The position numbers and the translations under genes were made by a program. DNA of 64,000 nt, taken from an uncultured Clostridia bacterium. Lineage in GTDB: Bacteria > Bacillota > Clostridia > Lachnospirales > CAG-274. Below, in pieces: positions 10,284 to 42,398 of this stretch (positions within the stretch are counted from its first letter, which is position 1; each line of letters opens with the position of its first letter). The stretch spans positions 1-64,000 of the forward strand of contig CANQIA010000002.1 in the NCBI GenBank assembly GCA_947624015.1. The letters are read 5' to 3'. The notes beneath the pieces were generated by a model that saw nothing but the letters and a program-made list of their open reading frames with translations, was not told the DNA's origin and searched no databases.

Positions 10284-10359
10284 AACTTTAAAACGCAGTA
10301 TATCTGCGTTTTAAAATACACCTGCTGTTAGTCCGACAGCAATGTATACGCTCTCAATA

Positions 10360-10520
10360 CCGAGCATTGCATAAGGCAGGTCTTCTGACTTGGAGTATAA
10401 GTCCGCTTGCCTTCCCATGTGTAACCACAGTGGCATATAAGCGGACAACCTCTTCACAGCGGCGGTCCCGTTTGGAATTTGCATCCAATTCCCTATTGAG
10501 TTTGATCAAAAACACCTTAT
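10360..10520 (-). ncRNA. Cobalamin (B12) riboswitch
   Basis: The minus-strand leader contains the B12 box AGTCAGAAGACCTGCC (about 10375-10390), the 5' element ATAAGGTGTTTTTGATC, and the core segments GGGAATTGGATGC, GGGACCGCCGCTGT and GAAGGCAAGCGG in the correct order. It precedes cbiM and should repress the entire cobalt-uptake/tetrapyrrole superoperon when B12 is plentiful. Confidence 0.96.
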
Positions 10521-10555
10521 ACATATTTTAAGAGAGAAAAACCTCTCCTTTTCCG

Positions 10556-32069: not shown

Positions 32070-35000
32070 TTATTTTTTCCTCATATCTCTGTTTATATCA
32101 AATATATCCAGCTTGCTTTCGTCAATATGCTTTTCCATAACATTGACCATGGCATTAAAGGTATCCATGGCGGTAATGAGAGTTACAGAGCTTTCCACAG
32201 CCGTTCTTCTTATCTTGAAGCCATCGCTCTTTTTATTGTTTGCCTTCTTCGGTATATCCACAATAAGGTCTACGACTCCGCTCCTTATGGTGTCTATAAT
32301 GTTAGGCACACCTTCGCTTATTTTCTTTACAAGCTTACAGTCAATACCGGCTTCTTTAAGGGCTCTTGCGGTACCCTTGGTAGCTATAAAATTACAGCCT
32401 AAGTCCTTGCATCTCTTTGCTATCTCAACGAAAGCTTCGTGATCCTTGCTGCCAACAGTGGCAATAATTGTACTGCCTGCCTTGGGTACTGTCATACCTG
32501 CCGCTATAAAGCCCTTGTAAAGAGCATTTTCAAGATTATAGCCAACTCCAAGCACTTCGCCTGTGGATCTCATTTCGGGACCTAAGCTTACCTCCACCTG
32601 AGGAAGCTTTTCGGTAGAAAATACAGGAACCTTAACAGCCACTACATTAGGTTCATCGCATATACCTGTGCCGTAGCCCATGTCAGCCAGTTTTTCTCCA
32701 AGCATAACTCTTGTTGCTATATCTATAACGGGAACTCCCGTTACCTTTGTTATATAGGGTACAGTCCTGGAGGAACGGGGATTGACTTCTATTATATTCA
32801 GCTCTCCCTTAAAATCGATAAACTGTATATTTATCATACCTATTACCTTAAGGGCAACCGATATTTTCTTAGTTACCTCCATTATCTGGCGCTTCATATC
32901 CTCTGAAATGTTCTGAGGCGGATATATAGATATACTGTCGCCTGAATGAACGCCTGCTCTTTCCAAATGCTCCATGATACCGGGGATATAAACGTCGGTG
33001 CCGTCGCATATGGCGTCTACCTCTATTTCCCTGCCGCTAAGATATCTGTCTATAAGCACGGGATTTTTGCTGTCCTTTTCAAAGGCATCGGAAAGATACA
33101 TTTTAAGCTGATCATCATTATAGGTGATCTCCATACCCTGACCGCCCAATACATAGCTTGGTCTTACAAGCACAGGAAAGCCAAGGCGTTCCGCCGTTTC
33201 TATGCCCTCTGCCACCGACCATACGCCTTTTCCCTTGGGTCTTGAAATACCAAGGGTCTCAAGTACGGCGTCAAACTTTTCTCTGTCCTCAGCCTCGTCT
33301 ATCTGCTCCGGGAGAGTTCCCAATATGGGTATATGCATTTCGTCAAAGAAATTTGCAAGCTTTATAGCCGTCTGACCGCCGAACTGGAGTATTACGCCGT
33401 CAGGCTTTTCAAGCTCTACCACATTGAGTACGTCCTCTTCCGTAAGCGGTTCAAAATACAGCTTGTCGGCTGTATCAAAATCCGTAGATACGGTCTCGGG
33501 ATTGTTGTTTACGATTATGGTCTCGATGCCTGCCTTCTTAAGAGCCATTATACAGTGGACGGAACAATAGTCAAACTCTATACCCTGACCGATCCTTATA
33601 GGTCCTGAGCCTATTACCATTACCTTCTTATTGTTGCTTACAACTACCTCGTTCTCACTGTCGTAGCTGGAATAGTAATAGGGCGTTACGGCTTCAAACT
33701 CGCCTGCGCAGGTGTCTACCATTTTAAACACAGGCATTATATCCCATTTCTTTCTCAAATCATAGATATCTGGAGGAGTACAGCCTACAAAACGGCTTAT
33801 GGCTTTGTCCGAGAAGCCCTTTTCCTTAAAGTAGGTAAGGTTTTCCTTTGTAAAGTCCTTAAGCTTCATAGTCTTTAATTCCTCTTCCATTTCCACAAGA
33901 TTGGCGATCTTGTGTACAAAGAAAAGATCCATACCCGTTATCTGACAAATTTTTTCTACCTTATAGCCTCGTCTTATCATTTCAGCCATATCGAACAGTC
34001 TTTCATCATCGGGAGTTACGACCCGCTTTTTGAGAGTTTCAAGATCTCTGGCGGAGGATGACTTTCTCTCAAGACCGTACTGACCTATTTCAAGAGAACG
34101 CACGCCCTTTAAAAGAGCGGCTTCAAAGCTCTTTCCTATTGACATTATCTCTCCCGTTGCCATCATCTTTGTGCCAAGTGTCCTCTTGGCGCCGAAGAAT
34201 TTATCAAAGGGCCATCTGGGGAATTTAAGTACAACATAGTCTATCGTAGGCTCGAAGCAGGCGAATGTCTTGCCTGTTACAGCGTTCTTTATCTCATCTA
34301 GGTTGTAGCCCAATGCTATCTTTGCTCCTACCTTGGCAATGGGATATCCCGTCGCCTTTGACGCAAGGGCAGAAGAACGGCTCACTCTTGGGTTTATCTC
34401 TATAACGGCGTAATTATAGCTGTTAGGGTCAAGGGCAAACTGAACATTGCAGCCGCCTTTTATCTCTATTGAATTTATAATGTTGATAGCTGCGCTTCTC
34501 AGCATCTGATATTCTCTGTCGGAAAGGGTCTGGGCAGGCGCAACTACTATACTGTCGCCTGTATGTACGCCTACGGGATCGACATTTTCCATACTACATA
34601 CTGTAATACAGTTGCCTGCGCCATCTCTCATGACCTCAAACTCTATTTCCTTCCAGCCGGCAATACTTTTTTCAATAAGCACCTGACCTACTCTTGACAG
34701 ATGAAGGCCCTGTGTGCATATTTCTCTCAGCTCCGCCTCGTCGTGGGCGATACCGCCGCCTGTACCGCCCAGCGTATAAGCGGGACGCACTATAACGGGA
34801 TAGCCTATGCTCTGGGCAAATTCTATGGCTGAATCCACATCTGTAACGATATCGCTTTCCACTATGGGCTGATTTGTTCTCTCCATAAGGCGTTTGAAGC
34901 TGTCTCTGTCCTCGCCCTCCTTAATGGATTCTATGGAGGTGCCTATTACCTTTACATGATATTTATCCAATATTCCTCTGTCGTAAAGCTCGCAGCTCAG

Positions 35001-35291
35001 ATTAAGACCTGTCTGACCGCCCATTCCCGCAATTATGCTGTCGGGGCGTTCCTTTGCTATTACCTTTTCAAGAAAATCTATTGTAAGCGGCTCTATATAA
35101 GTATAATGAGCCATGCCCAAGTCCGTCATTATAGTTGCGGGATTTGAATTGACAAGAACGACATCTATGCCTTCTTCCTTTATTGACTGACATGCCTGTG
35201 TGCCTGAATAATCAAACTCTGCCGCCTGACCTATAACTATGGGACCCGAACCTATTACAAGTACCTTTTTAATGGAATTATCTCTTGGCAT
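32070..35291 (-). CDS. carB: Carbamoyl-phosphate synthase large subunit
   Basis: 1073 aa, full length. Two homologous ATP-grasp halves start at [21 protein letters not shown] and [20 protein letters not shown]. Each has the typical GGTGGGIA-like or GGQGMEI loop and NPR motifs ([40 protein letters not shown]). A C-terminal MGS-like allosteric domain follows from about residue 935. It makes carbamoyl phosphate for pyrimidines and arginine. Last gene of the pyr operon. Confidence 0.97.
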
Positions 35292-36372
35292 GGGACTTTA
35301 CCTCCTCGATCATCTTTATAAATCTGTCGAAAAGCACCTGAGTATCAAGAGGGCCCGGGCTTGCTTCCGGGTGGAACTGTACTGAATATACAGGCTTGGT
35401 CTTATGCCTTATGCCCTCTATACTTCCGTCGTTTACATTTATAAAGGTAGCCTCAACATCATCTGAAAGATCGCTTACCACAAACTCGTGGTTCTGGCTT
35501 GTAATATATACTCTGCCTGTTTTCAGATCCTTTACGGGATGATTTCCGCCGTGATGTCCGAACTTGAGCCTTGTGGTGTTGCAGCCTAACGCAAGGCTTA
35601 TAAGCTGATGACCCAGACATATGCCAAGCACAGGCATTCCCGTATCTATAAGCTTTCTTACCGTTTCCACAACATCCGGAATGTCCTTGGGATCTCCGGG
35701 ACCGTTGCCTAAGAATATGGCGTCGGGATTAACGGATAATATCTCTTCGGCAGATGTAAAGGCAGGGAAAACGCTGAGCTTACAGCCTCTCTTTGCCAGA
35801 TCTCTCAATATACCATGTTTTATACCGCAGTCAAGCACAGCAAGATGAGTACCTCTTCCGCTTATGACATAAGGCTCATCTATGGTGGTTTCCTTAACGG
35901 CATAGGCGTTTGTATACGTATCGAATTTCTGCTTTATCTGACTTGGCGTAAGGTCGTCTACTCTTGTTGTGATTATCCCTCTCATTGTACCGTTATCTCT
36001 CAATACCCTTGTCAAGGCTCTGGTATCGATATTTTCAAGTCCCATTATCTTATTCTGATAAAGAAAATTGTCAATATCCATTTCACAGCGCCAGTTATTG
36101 GGAACCTCGCACTTTTCTCTGACCACAAAACCCTTTAAAAACGGTTTTCTGCTTTCCATATCCTCCAAATTGATACCATAGTTGCCTATAAGGGGATATG
36201 TCATTGTAACTATCTGACCTGCAAAGGAAGGGTCGGTCAAGGTTTCCTGATAACCTGTCATACCTGTTGTGAACACTACTTCGCCTACCGTTTCTTTAAT
36301 GTAGCCGAAAGCATTGCCCTTGAAGCGCACGCCGTTTTCAAGTATCAGTTCTGCTTTCACAGTCTTTTTCAT
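35278..36372 (-). CDS. carA: Carbamoyl-phosphate synthase small subunit (glutaminase)
   Basis: About 364 aa. The N-terminal CarA domain ([19 protein letters not shown]) is followed by a class-I glutamine amidotransferase with the nucleophile Cys in [14 protein letters not shown] and the His/Glu pair in [10 protein letters not shown]. It delivers ammonia to CarB. The ATG at 36372 overlaps the pyrF stop (ATGA). The 3' end overlaps carB by 14 nt. Confidence 0.97.
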
Positions 36373-37304
36373 GGCTGTATACATCTCCTTAAATCATTTT
36401 TCATATCTATGCATGCCTGCCTTGCAGCCTGGGCAAAGTTTCTTTCATCGTTAAAGCAATGCTTGTATTCATCCTTCATATGAGCGGCTATGATACCTCT
36501 TGAAGAGTTTACTATGGCGCCTAAGCCCTCTGCATCAAAGCACACGGAAAGGTCTTCCGCCTTGCCGCCCTGAGCGCCGTAGCCCGGTACAAGGAAGAAG
36601 GTATGAGGCATTACTTCTCTCAATCTCTTTGCCTGCTCCGGATGAGTTGCGCCTACAACGGCTCCTACGCTGCTGTATCCGTATCTGCCCATAAGCTCGC
36701 TGCCCCACTTTTCAATAAGAGCGCCAACCTTTTCATATATGGGAACGCCCTCTGTTATAAGATCCTGTATTTCTCCGCTGTTGGGATTAGATGTTTTTGC
36801 AAGCACGAATATGCCCTTTTCGTAAGCGGCGCAGTCCTTAAGGAAGGGAGTTATGGAATCTGAGCCCAAGTAAGGATTAAGAGTTATAAAATCCTGTGGA
36901 AAGCCTTCATACTCCGTGTCCACTATCGTTACTCTGCCTATATGTCCGTCGGAATACGCCTCGGCGGTAGAAGCTATATCGCTTCTCTTTACATCGCCTA
37001 TTACTGTAAGTCCCCTCAGCTTTGCATACTCACAGGTCTTGACATATGCCTTAAGTCCTTCTATGCCGTATCTTTCATACATTGCTATCTGAGGCTTTAC
37101 GGCAGGAACAATGTCATATACTGCGTCTATTATATACTTGTTGAACTTATACATTGACTTTGCCGCCGCTTTTGGCGTGTGTCCGTACTTTGAATAATAT
37201 TTGTCTGTTATAAATGAAGGTATATAATTTAATCTCGGATCAAGTCCCACAACTGTGGGATTGCCTGTTTCCTTTATTCTGTCTATAAGTCTGTCTATGA
37301 TCAT
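36369..37304 (-). CDS. pyrF: Orotidine 5'-phosphate decarboxylase, type 2
   Basis: 311 aa, the longer PyrF subfamily. The catalytic Lys/Asp signature appears as VIGDVKRSDIASTAEAY, with VGLDPRLNYIP at the N-terminus and VPGYGAQGGKAEDL near the phosphate site. It makes UMP from OMP. It lies between pyrC and carA. pyrD, pyrK and pyrE are absent from this operon. Confidence 0.96.
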   Translation of the reverse strand: MIIDRLIDRIKETGNPTVVGLDPRLNYIPSFITDKYYSKYGHTPKAAAKSMYKFNKYIIDAVYDIVPAVKPQIAMYERYGIEGLKAYVKTCEYAKLRGLTVIGDVKRSDIASTAEAYSDGHIGRVTIVDTEYEGFPQDFITLNPYLGSDSITPFLKDCAAYEKGIFVLAKTSNPNSGEIQDLITEGVPIYEKVGALIEKWGSELMGRYGYSSVGAVVGATHPEQAKRLREVMPHTFFLVPGYGAQGGKAEDLSVCFDAEGLGAIVNSSRGIIAAHMKDEYKHCFNDERNFAQAARQACIDMKNDLRRCIQP

Positions 37305-37316
37305 ATATTTATCTCC

Positions 37317-38612
37317 TTATCTGTACTGTTCTGTAAGACTGCCCTTTTCGACTATCACATTGCCTGAGCATATTGTGTAAAGCACCCTGCCCTTTACCTT
37401 CCTGCCGTTATAGGGCATATTCTTTGCCTTAGACACCATGCTGTTCACATCTATGGTATACTCTGTATTTACATCTGCTATGGTTATATCGGCAACGGCG
37501 CCGACGCTTAGCCTTCCCTTTTCTATACCCAATATTTTTGCAGGATTAAAGCTCATTTTTTCCACAAGTTTGCTTGGCGTGAGCCAGCCCTTTTCCACAA
37601 GCTCGGTATAGCTTAATGCAAAGGAGGTCTCAAGACCCGTTATGCCGTTTGCCGCCTTTTCAAACTCACAGTTCTTATCGTCTATATGGTGGGGCGCATG
37701 ATCCGTTGCGATAACTTCTATAATGTTGTCCTTAAGCGCCTGCCTTATGGCATCTCTGTCCTCCCTGCTCCTAAGAGGAGGGTTCATTTTGAAGTTAGCG
37801 TCATAGTCCGTAATATCCTCATCGCAAAGCGTAAAGTAGTGAGGAGCCGTTTCGGCGGTAACATTGACACCCTTCTCCTTTCCTTCCTTTATGAGCCTGA
37901 CGCTTCCCTTGGTACTCATATGGCACAAATGGAGCTGACAGCCTGTAGCCCCTGCAAGTATTATATCCCTTGCCACCATGACCTCCTCGGAGTCATTGCC
38001 TATGCCTTTAAGTCCAAGCAGCGAAGCTCTGTCTCCTGCATTCATGGAGCCTTTTGCAAGTCTTATTTCCTCGCAGTGGTCGAATACGGGAAGATCGAAC
38101 ATTCTGGAATATCTCATGGCATTTTTCATAAGGGAGGGATCGTCTACGGATCTTCCGTCTTCCGATACGGCGCAGGCGCCTGCCGCAGCCATTGTGCCTA
38201 TATCGGCAAGCTCCTCTCCCTTTTGTCCCTTTGTTATTGCGCCTATGGGAAGTACGTTTATGACTGCGTTTCTCTTGGGACTCAGGGCATACTCTATAAG
38301 CACGGCGTTGTCTGTGACAGGATCGGTGTTTGGCATTGTACATACTGTGGTAAAGCCGCCTACTGCCGCTGCCCTTGAGCCTGAGGCTATCGTTTCCTTA
38401 TTTTCATAACCCGGCTCTCTGAAATGCACATGAAGGTCTATAAGTCCCGGCATTACCCACATACCTTCGGCGTCTATCACCTTGTCGGCGCTGTCGGTAA
38501 TATCTTTCTCTACCTTGACTATAATACCGTCTTTCACAAGTATATCCATGGCACTGTCAACATTGTTACAGGGGTCTATTACTCTGCCCTTTTTAATAAG
38601 TATACTGCTCAT
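37317..38612 (-). CDS. pyrC: Dihydroorotase
   Basis: 431 aa class-I dihydroorotase. The metal motif DLHVHFREPGYENKETI, the carboxylated-lysine region and ATDHAPHHIDDK are present. It cyclises N-carbamoyl-aspartate. Active-site residues are intact, so it is not a PyrC-like non-catalytic partner. It sits 9 bp downstream of pyrB. Confidence 0.96.
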   Translation of the reverse strand: MSSILIKKGRVIDPCNNVDSAMDILVKDGIIVKVEKDITDSADKVIDAEGMWVMPGLIDLHVHFREPGYENKETIASGSRAAAVGGFTTVCTMPNTDPVTDNAVLIEYALSPKRNAVINVLPIGAITKGQKGEELADIGTMAAAGACAVSEDGRSVDDPSLMKNAMRYSRMFDLPVFDHCEEIRLAKGSMNAGDRASLLGLKGIGNDSEEVMVARDIILAGATGCQLHLCHMSTKGSVRLIKEGKEKGVNVTAETAPHYFTLCDEDITDYDANFKMNPPLRSREDRDAIRQALKDNIIEVIATDHAPHHIDDKNCEFEKAANGITGLETSFALSYTELVEKGWLTPSKLVEKMSFNPAKILGIEKGRLSVGAVADITIADVNTEYTIDVNSMVSKAKNMPYNGRKVKGRVLYTICSGNVIVEKGSLTEQYR

Positions 38613-38621
38613 AACAACCTC

Positions 38622-39548
38622 CTATATCTTTGAATTGTTCTCTGTAAGGAGCTTAAGTATAGCCATCCTTACAGCTACGCCGTTCTTTACCTGAACTGTT
38701 ATTACCGAATTGCTTCCGTCTATTACCTCCGTACTCAGCTCAACGCCTCGGTTTACAGGTCCCGGATGCATTACAAGCACATCCTTCTTGGCATACTTTA
38801 GCATACTGCTGTTTACACCGAAAAGACTTGAATATTCTCTCAGATTCGGGAATGGCATATTTCTCTGTCTTTCAAACTGTATCCTAAGTCCCATTACAAC
38901 ATCTGCGTCCCTTATGGCAGAGGGTATGTCCGTGCTTATCTGCACGCCCAGACTTTTCATAGAGCTGCTTACAAGAGTTGAGGGACCTGCAAGAGTTACC
39001 TTTGCCCCAAGCTTTGTAAGTCCGAAGGCATTGCTCCTTGCAACTCTTGAATGGGATATATCTCCAAGTATTACTACCTTAAGCCCTTGGAAGCCTCCCT
39101 TTCTTTCAAGTATGGTATAGAGATCCAAAAGCGCTTGGGTAGGGTGTTCGTTTGAGCCGTCTCCCGCATTTATAACGCTTGCCTTTACATTCTTTGCAAG
39201 TATATGCGCAGCTCCCGTCAGTTGATGACGTATTATCATTACATTTGTACCCATTTGGTCAAGAGTAACGCCTGTATCTATAAGGCTTTCGCCCTTGGAT
39301 ACGCTGCTTGTTGCAACACCTAAGTCCTTTACTATGGCTCCCTGGTATTCTCCCGCAAGCATAAAGGACATTTTTGTTCTGGTGCTGTTTTCATAGAACA
39401 GAGTTACGATACTGCTCTTTTCAAGACTCTTGTCTCTAAGGGACGGATCGTCTATTTTGGCTTTCATTTCCTTTGCCGTATCAAGTATGGTCATTATTTC
39501 GTCCGCACTTAATTCTCTTAGCCCAAGCAGGTCTTTTCTTTTGTACAT
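38622..39548 (-). CDS. pyrB: Aspartate carbamoyltransferase catalytic subunit
   Basis: 308 aa. The carbamoyl-phosphate loop FYENSTRTKMSFMLAGE and GSNEHPTQALLDLYTI are intact. No pyrI regulatory-subunit gene follows, so allosteric control by nucleotides is probably lacking here. Control appears to act at the leader attenuator upstream. GGAGG lies 6 nt before the ATG, just downstream of the attenuator U tract. Confidence 0.96.
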   Translation of the reverse strand: MYKRKDLLGLRELSADEIMTILDTAKEMKAKIDDPSLRDKSLEKSSIVTLFYENSTRTKMSFMLAGEYQGAIVKDLGVATSSVSKGESLIDTGVTLDQMGTNVMIIRHQLTGAAHILAKNVKASVINAGDGSNEHPTQALLDLYTILERKGGFQGLKVVILGDISHSRVARSNAFGLTKLGAKVTLAGPSTLVSSSMKSLGVQISTDIPSAIRDADVVMGLRIQFERQRNMPFPNLREYSSLFGVNSSMLKYAKKDVLVMHPGPVNRGVELSTEVIDGSNSVITVQVKNGVAVRMAILKLLTENNSKI

Positions 39549-39578: not shown

Positions 39579-39627
39579 AAAAAAAAAGACAATAAAAGGA
39601 ATTAAAACAAAACCTTTAACTGTCTTT
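39579..39627 (-). terminator. Attenuator terminator before pyrB
   Basis: On the minus strand AAAGACAGTTAAAGG (39613-39627) pairs with CCTTTTATTGTCTTT (39585-39599), giving 14 pairs of 15 including one G-U, with a 13-nt loop and a U tract (39579-39584). The 5' arm is part of the leader peptide coding region and the loop contains its stop codon, so a translating ribosome would block the hairpin. Confidence 0.88.
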
Positions 39628-39703
39628 CAAAACCATTTTCACAAACAAGCAAGGGAACAAAATACTTATGCCATATACTTTTAAATATGCCTATGTATAA
39701 CAT
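39602..39703 (-). CDS. Pyr operon leader peptide
   Basis: 33-codon reading frame starting MLYIGIFKSIWHKYF and ending RQLKVLF, with a strong GGAGGG ribosome site (39709-39714) and no similarity that I recognise. Its stop codon (39602-39604) lies inside the loop of the pyrB attenuator. The arrangement matches the enterobacterial pyrBI leader, where coupling of ribosome and polymerase senses UTP. The peptide itself probably has no function beyond its translation. Confidence 0.8.
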   Translation of the reverse strand: MLYIGIFKSIWHKYFVPLLVCENGFERQLKVLF

Positions 39704-39734
39704 ACTATCCCTCCTTATTTTTTATATCCTAAAA

Positions 39735-39763
39735 ATTTTATCATCAATATCATATTTTGTCAA
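39735..39763 (-). promoter_or_regulatory. Promoter of the pyrimidine operon
   Basis: Minus strand TTGACA (39758-39763), 17-bp spacer, TAAAAT (39735-39740). It drives the leader peptide, attenuator and pyrBCF-carAB. Confidence 0.9.
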
Positions 39764-41015: not shown

Positions 41016-41037
41016 ATTATTTGTAAATAAATATTGC

Positions 41038-41165
41038 CTTATCAAGAGAGGTGGAGGGACAGGCCCTATGAAGCCCGGCAACCGGTCGAAATGACAGCGG
41101 TGCCAATTCCTGCGGTTTATTCCGAAAGATGAGCTTTAGAATAAGCCTTTACAAAGGCTTTTTTT
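41038..41165 (+). ncRNA. SAM-I (S-box) riboswitch with terminator
   Basis: The leader starts CTTATCAAGAGAGGTGGAGG and continues GGACAGGCCCTATGAAGCCC and GGCAACC, all hallmark S-box segments. It ends with the terminator stem AAGCCTTT/AAAGGCTT (41143-41160) and a U tract. It should switch metK off when SAM is high. Confidence 0.97.
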
Positions 41166-41225: not shown

Positions 41226-42398
41226 ATGAAAAGATTTTTCACTTCGGAATCTGTTACGGAGGGACATCCCGACAAGATATGCGATCAGATATCCGATGCA
41301 GTGCTTGACGCTATAATCGCCAAGGATCCTATGGCAAGAGTAGCTTGCGAAACAATGGCAACAACAGGTCTTATTATGGTGGCAGGAGAGGTCACCACAA
41401 ACTGTTATGTGGATATTGATGAAATTGCAAGGGAGACCGTAAGGGAAATAGGCTACGACCGAGCAAAGTACGGCTTCGACTGCGATAGCTGCGCAGTACT
41501 CACTTCTCTTAAAGGACAAAGTCCCGATATTGCCCAAGGCGTTAATTCTTCCCTTGAGGCAAGAGAGGGAAATGCGGATACAAACGATACGGGAGCAGGC
41601 GATCAGGGTATGATGTTCGGCTTTGCCTGTGACGAAACAGAGGACTATATGCCTATGCCTATATACTATGCCCACAAGCTTGCAAAAAAGCTGAGCGAGG
41701 TCAGAAAGAACGGCTTACTGCCATATCTCAGACCCGACGGAAAAAGCCAAGTAACGGTGGAATATGACGACGACAGGGCAGTAAGGATAGACAATGTTGT
41801 AATATCCACACAGCACAGCCCCGATGTGGAACACGATCAGATAGAAAAGGATATAATAGAGCAGGTAATAAAGACCGTTATCCCCGAAGATCTTTTGGAC
41901 GAAAACACAAAATATTATGTTAATCCCACAGGACGCTTTGTAATAGGCGGACCTCAAGGCGACTGCGGACTCACGGGCAGAAAAATAATCGTAGATACCT
42001 ACGGCGGATACGCAAGCCACGGAGGCGGCGCATTCAGCGGCAAGGATCCTACAAAGGTAGACCGTTCCGCCGCTTATGCAGCCAGATATGTTGCAAAAAA
42101 CATTGTAGCCGCAGGTATTGCCAAAAAATGTGAGATCCAGCTCGCTTATGCCATAGGAGTGGCAAAGCCCCTTTCTATACTGGTAAATACCTATGGTACA
42201 GGTAAGATCTCTGATGACAGGATAGTTGAGCTTGTAAAGGAAAACTTCGATCTGAGACCTGCTGCAATCATAAAGAATTTTGACCTGAGAAGACCTATAT
42301 ATAAGCAGACCGCAGCCTACGGACATTTTGGCAGGAGCGATATAGATGTGCCTTGGGAAAAGACAGATAAAATAAGCATATTTAAAAATGCATATTGA
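41226..42398 (+). CDS. metK: S-adenosylmethionine synthetase
   Basis: 390 aa. [21 protein letters not shown], the [15 protein letters not shown] motif and [19 protein letters not shown] are present. It makes SAM from methionine and ATP in the cytoplasm. It is controlled by the S-box leader and is monocistronic, ending at a strong terminator. Confidence 0.98.

Follow-up and report, generated by a model that had tools for sequence, protein, structure and literature searches.

A putative pyrBI-type attenuator with a predicted Shine-Dalgarno-closing helix ahead of pyrB in a family of gut Clostridia lacking PyrR

The window analysed here, a 64,000-nucleotide stretch of DNA from an uncultured Clostridia bacterium, carries on its minus strand a pyrimidine operon in the order pyrB-pyrC-pyrF-carA-carB, in which pyrI is absent and pyrC comes next after pyrB. 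A first-pass annotation had described, directly ahead of pyrB, a promoter, a strong Shine-Dalgarno sequence (SD), a leader of 33 codons, and a terminator of 15 pairs; this layout and its coordinates were confirmed. The features of the locus are as follows.

39758..39763, minus strand: -35 hexamer TTGACA, in a promoter layout kept in nearly all 42 leaders of the family
39735..39740, minus strand: -10 hexamer TAAAAT with a TG upstream, separated from the -35 hexamer by a 17-nt spacer
39708..39720, minus strand: left arm of the predicted SD-closing helix, AAATAAGGAGGGA, which includes the leader SD
39709-39716, minus strand: leader SD, AAGGAGGG, inside the left arm of that helix
39602..39703, minus strand: leader open reading frame of 33 codons, MLYIGIFKSIWHKYFVPLLVCENGFERQLKVLF, with its ATG at 39703 and its stop TAA at 39604-39602
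39642..39658, minus strand: U/C-rich tract, GTTCCCTTGCTTGTTTG, proposed to slow the polymerase in a UTP-sensitive manner and to form the right arm of the SD-closing helix
39588..39627, minus strand: intrinsic terminator hairpin of 15 pairs (10+5, one mismatch), whose 5' arm is leader coding sequence
39579..39587, minus strand: U-run of the terminator, nine T
38622..39548, minus strand: pyrB, aspartate carbamoyltransferase catalytic chain, ATG at 39548, first gene of the regulated operon
37317..38612, minus strand: pyrC, dihydroorotase, named by reading
36369..37304, minus strand: pyrF, OMP decarboxylase, named by reading
35278..36384, minus strand: carA, named by reading
32070..35291, minus strand: carB, named by reading

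The promoter (39763-39735) matches 11 of 12 consensus positions and is the top-scoring site within 38-46 kb of the window. The leader stop codon TAA falls within the apical loop region of the terminator, the last seven or so codons of the leader forming the 5' arm, and the hairpin has a predicted energy of -15.4 kcal/mol (z -5.3) that none of 200 shuffles equalled. Such an arrangement is not readily produced by chance, as none of 330 dinucleotide-shuffled versions of these leaders gave an SD-led reading frame ending in a terminator, while the identical strict scan recovered this arrangement in 34 of the 42 real ones. No Rfam family was matched at the window leader; elsewhere in the window, a SAM riboswitch lies at 41036-41135 (83.5 bits), before metK at 41226, and a cobalamin riboswitch lies on the minus strand at 10358-10534 (99.2 bits). 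In the same genome, the sequence read upstream of pyrE and upp contains no comparable leader.

For attenuation mediated by the PyrR protein, the textbook example is the pyr operon of Gram-positive bacteria; the pyrBI design has been described in enterobacteria. The first-pass annotation had seen neither a PyrR-binding loop nor a pyrR gene here, and this observation is borne out by a genome-wide scan with the PyrR-binding RNA model RF00515 and by a survey of genes with the PRTase fold: in an assembly of 1.95 Mb that is 95.8% complete, RF00515 has no match anywhere, and the seven PRTase-fold genes read as HPRT, Prs, PyrE, Xpt, Upp, ComF, and PurF. Similarly, no PyrR protein scored above the cut-off among 48 genomes of the window's family, two of the best sub-threshold matches both proved to be HPRT on checking, and PyrR RNA was not found in the family. 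Other families of the same order have PyrR RNA as well as PyrR proteins above the cut-off. A PyrR attenuator at the window was rejected, since the leader lacks RF00515 and the genome lacks a pyrR gene.

The window's family is labelled f1 here, and its genera g1-g11. Its named neighbour by PyrB sequence is Candidatus Gallispira edinburgensis (92%), the other close neighbours being gut Clostridia; Defluviitalea and Candidatus Neoanaerotignum belong to other families of the order, from which Lachnospirales is inferred as the probable order. The regions upstream of pyrB across f1 gave 42 leaders that represent all 11 genera. The family has about 46 pyrB loci, among which two beyond the 42 keep the tract and the terminator (with an assembly gap in one and an early leader stop in the other), and two of genus g11, L030 and L033, have no leader within 600 nt upstream of pyrB. 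The 42 leaders are SD-led reading frames of 22-50 codons, most of them preceded by 28-30 nt of RNA ahead of the ATG, and the promoter layout is kept. The distance from the ATG to the hairpin is 70-92 nt, with one exception of 117, and the stop codon falls between -16 and +23 relative to the hairpin start, with one read-through; coverage of the 5' arm is marginal in L027, where the stop precedes the hairpin by 16 nt. The leader peptide is not conserved and no regulatory codon is shared, so the position of the ribosome, rather than the peptide, is what appears to matter.

A PyrR-binding consensus in the leader and a lack of conservation of the leader frame in relatives had been named beforehand as outcomes that would refute the attenuator reading, and neither was found: the frame has no internal stops and is under coding selection, with pN/pS of 0.50 within g1 and 0.27 in one g9 group; in these groups the signal is confined to frame 0, and smaller within-genus comparisons were mixed. 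Compensatory changes in the terminator, which the first-pass annotation had proposed looking for, are present at 8 of 14 pairs; the covariation score of 0.409 compares with 0.255 +/- 0.015 in shuffles and was reached by none of 500, and the two basal pairs swap G-C to A-U and A-U to G-C. In L037, the real terminator is followed, 131 nt before pyrB, by a second, terminator-like copy, GATATTGTCTTTTTT, which is possibly a relic of duplication.

Ahead of the hairpin, the sequence from -45 to -6 averages 57% U in the f1 leaders versus 25% in windows of pyrB coding sequence, and 40 of 42 leaders exceed the 99th percentile of the latter (40% U). The tract of the window itself is only borderline at 42% U, below the mean of its relatives. 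TTNTTT, reportedly a NusG pause motif of Gram-positive bacteria, occurs in 41 of 42 leaders, without enrichment beyond composition.

The U-rich tract is predicted to have a second role, newly described here and missed by the first-pass annotation, in that it can also pair with the leader's own SD. The helices comprise 12-20 bp in most leaders and reach past the SD, and in almost all genera the SD lies at the centre of their left arm. In predicted folding of the emerging leader, the SD core is unpaired at 0.64 before the tract is made and paired with the tract at 0.88 afterwards. Since pyrimidine-rich tracts pair with SDs in any case, specificity was tested in several ways, and these bear directly on the view that the locus is a plain pyrBI-type attenuator whose SD-tract helix is a mere by-product of a pyrimidine-rich tract lying downstream of a purine-rich SD. 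In favour of that view, masking of the SD is 0.875 with the leader's own tract and still 0.68 with dinucleotide-shuffled tracts of the same composition (0.39 with codon-shuffled leaders); moreover, the excess is weak in genera g2, g7, and g10, the own tract of g7 masks the SD no better than a shuffled one, and L032 of genus g2 has no SD-tract helix. Against it, SD:tract complementarity exceeds composition with a Stouffer z of -6.7 over genera, whereas control pairings show no such excess (SD:head +0.3, head:tract -1.0, SD:5' arm +0.2, SD:3' arm -0.8, and pyrB's own SD at the same distance -0.3). When the SD core is held constant, the flanks outside the SD, to which no anti-SD argument applies, pair with their own tract better than foreign-genus or shuffled flanks do in 11 of 11 genera (p=0.001), and up to 18 contiguous pairs form in L036. 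A by-product thus remains conceivable but is considered unlikely.

The same helix might instead serve as a pause hairpin for RNA polymerase, comparable to the hairpin pause reported for E. coli pyrL (PMC10135430), and not as a lock on ribosome loading. It ends approximately 15-25 nt before the terminator, which would place a polymerase some 11 nt further on still in U-rich sequence; however, the centring of the left arm on the SD in nearly every genus and the lack of excess complementarity between the leader head and the tract make a pause role on its own rather improbable. The two roles are compatible and not mutually exclusive. A classic two-structure attenuator, in which the tract and the 5' arm of the terminator form an antiterminator, perhaps aided by an unknown protein or ligand, could be imagined because the tract and the 3' arm are both pyrimidine-rich, but tract:5'-arm pairing is no better than in shuffles (mean z +0.3), and neither an Rfam family nor a PyrR RNA is present at the leader, which leaves it very little room. 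Sensing of an amino acid by a leader peptide of the his or trp type can practically be set aside, because no residue is abundant in every genus and the pathway-related Asp, Gln, and Arg are rare, the frequency of Phe, Ile, and Leu codons notwithstanding, as U-rich codons account for the residues that are common.

The preferred reading, held at a probability of roughly 75%, is, in the absence of expression data, that a transcription attenuator acting in cis and coupled to translation controls the pyrBCF-carAB operon, most likely in response to UTP. It rests on evidence from sequence alone, namely the anatomy, selection on the leader frame, terminator covariation, specific and co-varying complementarity between the tract and the SD flanks, the absence of PyrR, and conservation over 11 genera; UTP as the signal, UTP-dependent slowing, masking of the 5' arm by the ribosome, and the timing role of the helix are inferred. 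Transcription would start approximately 30 nt before the leader ATG, such that the strong SD emerges first and mostly open, and the polymerase must then cross the U-rich tract ahead of the terminator. At low UTP, the polymerase would slow on the tract, allowing a ribosome to load on the leader and follow; on reaching the leader end, this ribosome would cover the 5' arm, the terminator would not fold, and the operon would be transcribed. When UTP is plentiful, the tract would be cleared quickly, emerge, and pair with the SD and its flanks, shutting the leader to ribosomes, after which the terminator could fold and transcription would stop. Because the helix requires a tract that has already been transcribed, a slow polymerase would leave the SD open and a fast one would close it. 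The tract may therefore act as a time limit: its closing strand is not free while the polymerase still stands on it, and until then the leader would be loadable.

Attenuation of pyrBI is well studied in E. coli, and reiterative transcription initiation is a known extra layer of its control. The leaders of E. coli (L191) and Klebsiella (L192) were used as pyrL comparators. In E. coli, the polymerase moves more slowly over the U-rich pyrL when UTP is low, which lets the ribosome stay close behind and prevent the terminator from forming (PMC10135430). The anatomy of the window fits such a race between ribosome and polymerase, with UTP dependence and ribosome action inferred. As in pyrL, an SD-led leader reading frame extends into the terminator, so that its translation would overlap the hairpin, and a pyrimidine- or U-rich stretch lies 15-35 nt before the hairpin; the E. 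coli leader, measured identically, has 88 nt from ATG to hairpin and a UUUUUCUUCCCG stretch at about -31 to -15. The Klebsiella pyrBI leader has 34 codons and places its stop in the terminator loop, as the window does, whereas the E. coli leader reads through the terminator. Other differences are that the window operon is pyrB-pyrC-pyrF-carAB without pyrI, that its terminator is A/U-rich, and that its host belongs to the Clostridia. The start region is not AAUUUG but reads TTTTTAGGATAT after the -10 hexamer (the exact start is not mapped), and the layer of reiterative initiation is consequently not evident. Local alignment of leader peptides to pyrL gave no match at E values up to 100. The first-pass attribution to the enterobacterial pyrBI design thus holds for the type of mechanism, on the strength of anatomy, covariation, and reading frame, and does not hold for descent, in view of the peptide, the missing pyrI, and the start region. 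Attenuation of the pyrBI type is supported, with its UTP dependence inferred; the likeness to pyrL is one of design, and common descent is not demonstrated.

A comparable helix is predicted in the enterobacterial leaders. In E. coli K-12, the SD CGGGAGGA is predicted to pair with UCUUCCCG, the masking being complete approximately 75 nt after the ATG and matched by 0 of 200 codon shuffles and by 5% of dinucleotide shuffles; E. coli O18 and Klebsiella yield similar predicted pairings. Covariation of this helix could be followed in E. coli and Klebsiella only, where one Klebsiella change produces a G-U pair and no double compensation occurs. No prior report of a Clostridia leader of pyrBI type or of SD-tract pairing in pyrL was found in the open literature, the older E. 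coli literature lying outside the search.

The PyrR/RF00515 attenuators belong to the same type of operon, and in PyrR-bearing families within the order the pyrB attenuators resemble those of f1 in their terminator, RGCAAT...ATTGCC; they differ from f1, which has neither a PyrR gene nor a PyrR-binding RNA. In Defluviitaleaceae and other PyrR-bearing families, a stem-loop of the PyrR-binding type, CCUUU...UCCNGNGAGG...AAAGG, stands ahead of a leader reading frame that stops within, or extends past, a homologous-looking terminator before pyrB, and the 3' strand of this stem (CCUUU:AAAGG) is the leader SD. Apparent hybrids of PyrR control and a leader peptide are found at L055, L058, L064, L066, L067, and L069 (family f24), L068 and L072 (f8), L070 and L071 (f22), and L075 and L077 (f2). 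One of the PyrR-like sites reaches 51 bits, where the gathering score is 54, and the others score 31-39, so these stems are likely, rather than certain, to be PyrR sites. PyrR could mask the leader SD in the hybrids, whereas in f1 the leader's own tract can do so, which suggests, by inference, that these families share a control point in access to the leader SD, which PyrR would close in some and the leader itself in f1. The SD helix was not seen in PyrR families and is not clear in Anaerotignaceae, where leaders are present and no PyrR was found in the genomes searched. Compared with translational switches that sequester an SD, the likeness is that the SD is hidden by a downstream pyrimidine segment; the difference is that the masked frame here is an attenuator leader, and the consequence of masking would be an end to transcription, not to translation of the target gene.

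Taken at the level of the family, the PyrR-less Clostridia of f1 would pair pyrBI-type attenuation with a conserved helix that closes the SD and may exist in pyrL too. An entire family of gut Clostridia that has the pyrBI design and lacks PyrR exemplifies the exchange of two regulatory designs on one operon, an exchange that the apparent hybrids in sister families accompany, and the predicted helix would add to the classic mechanism a simple physical timer that is directly testable in E. coli. A broader generalization is offered only tentatively and could well prove wrong: the outcome at pyr attenuators across bacteria would be decided by ribosome access to the leader, and not by ribosome speed alone, with the U-rich stretch serving both as slow zone and as timed SD lock in Clostridia and, so far unnoticed, in enterobacterial pyrL, PyrR performing the same locking in relatives, and its loss having left or uncovered a self-locking version.

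Several further arrangements were observed in other Clostridia. Within Anaerotignaceae, the pyrB leaders L054, L061, L106, L107, and L111 share a GISAFFF-like peptide motif, and L061 additionally contains, within the leader reading frame, a strong hairpin (-19.8 kcal/mol) with a U-run behind it. At L121, L131, L132, L140, L151, and L152, of the Acetivibrio/Ruminiclostridium type, a terminator GTAAGG...CCTTAC abuts the pyrR stop codon before pyrB, such that translating pyrR could itself do the work of a leader. Outside the order, the Clostridia loci L125, L127, L128, L136, and L157 have short SD-led reading frames that overlap a terminator before pyrB.
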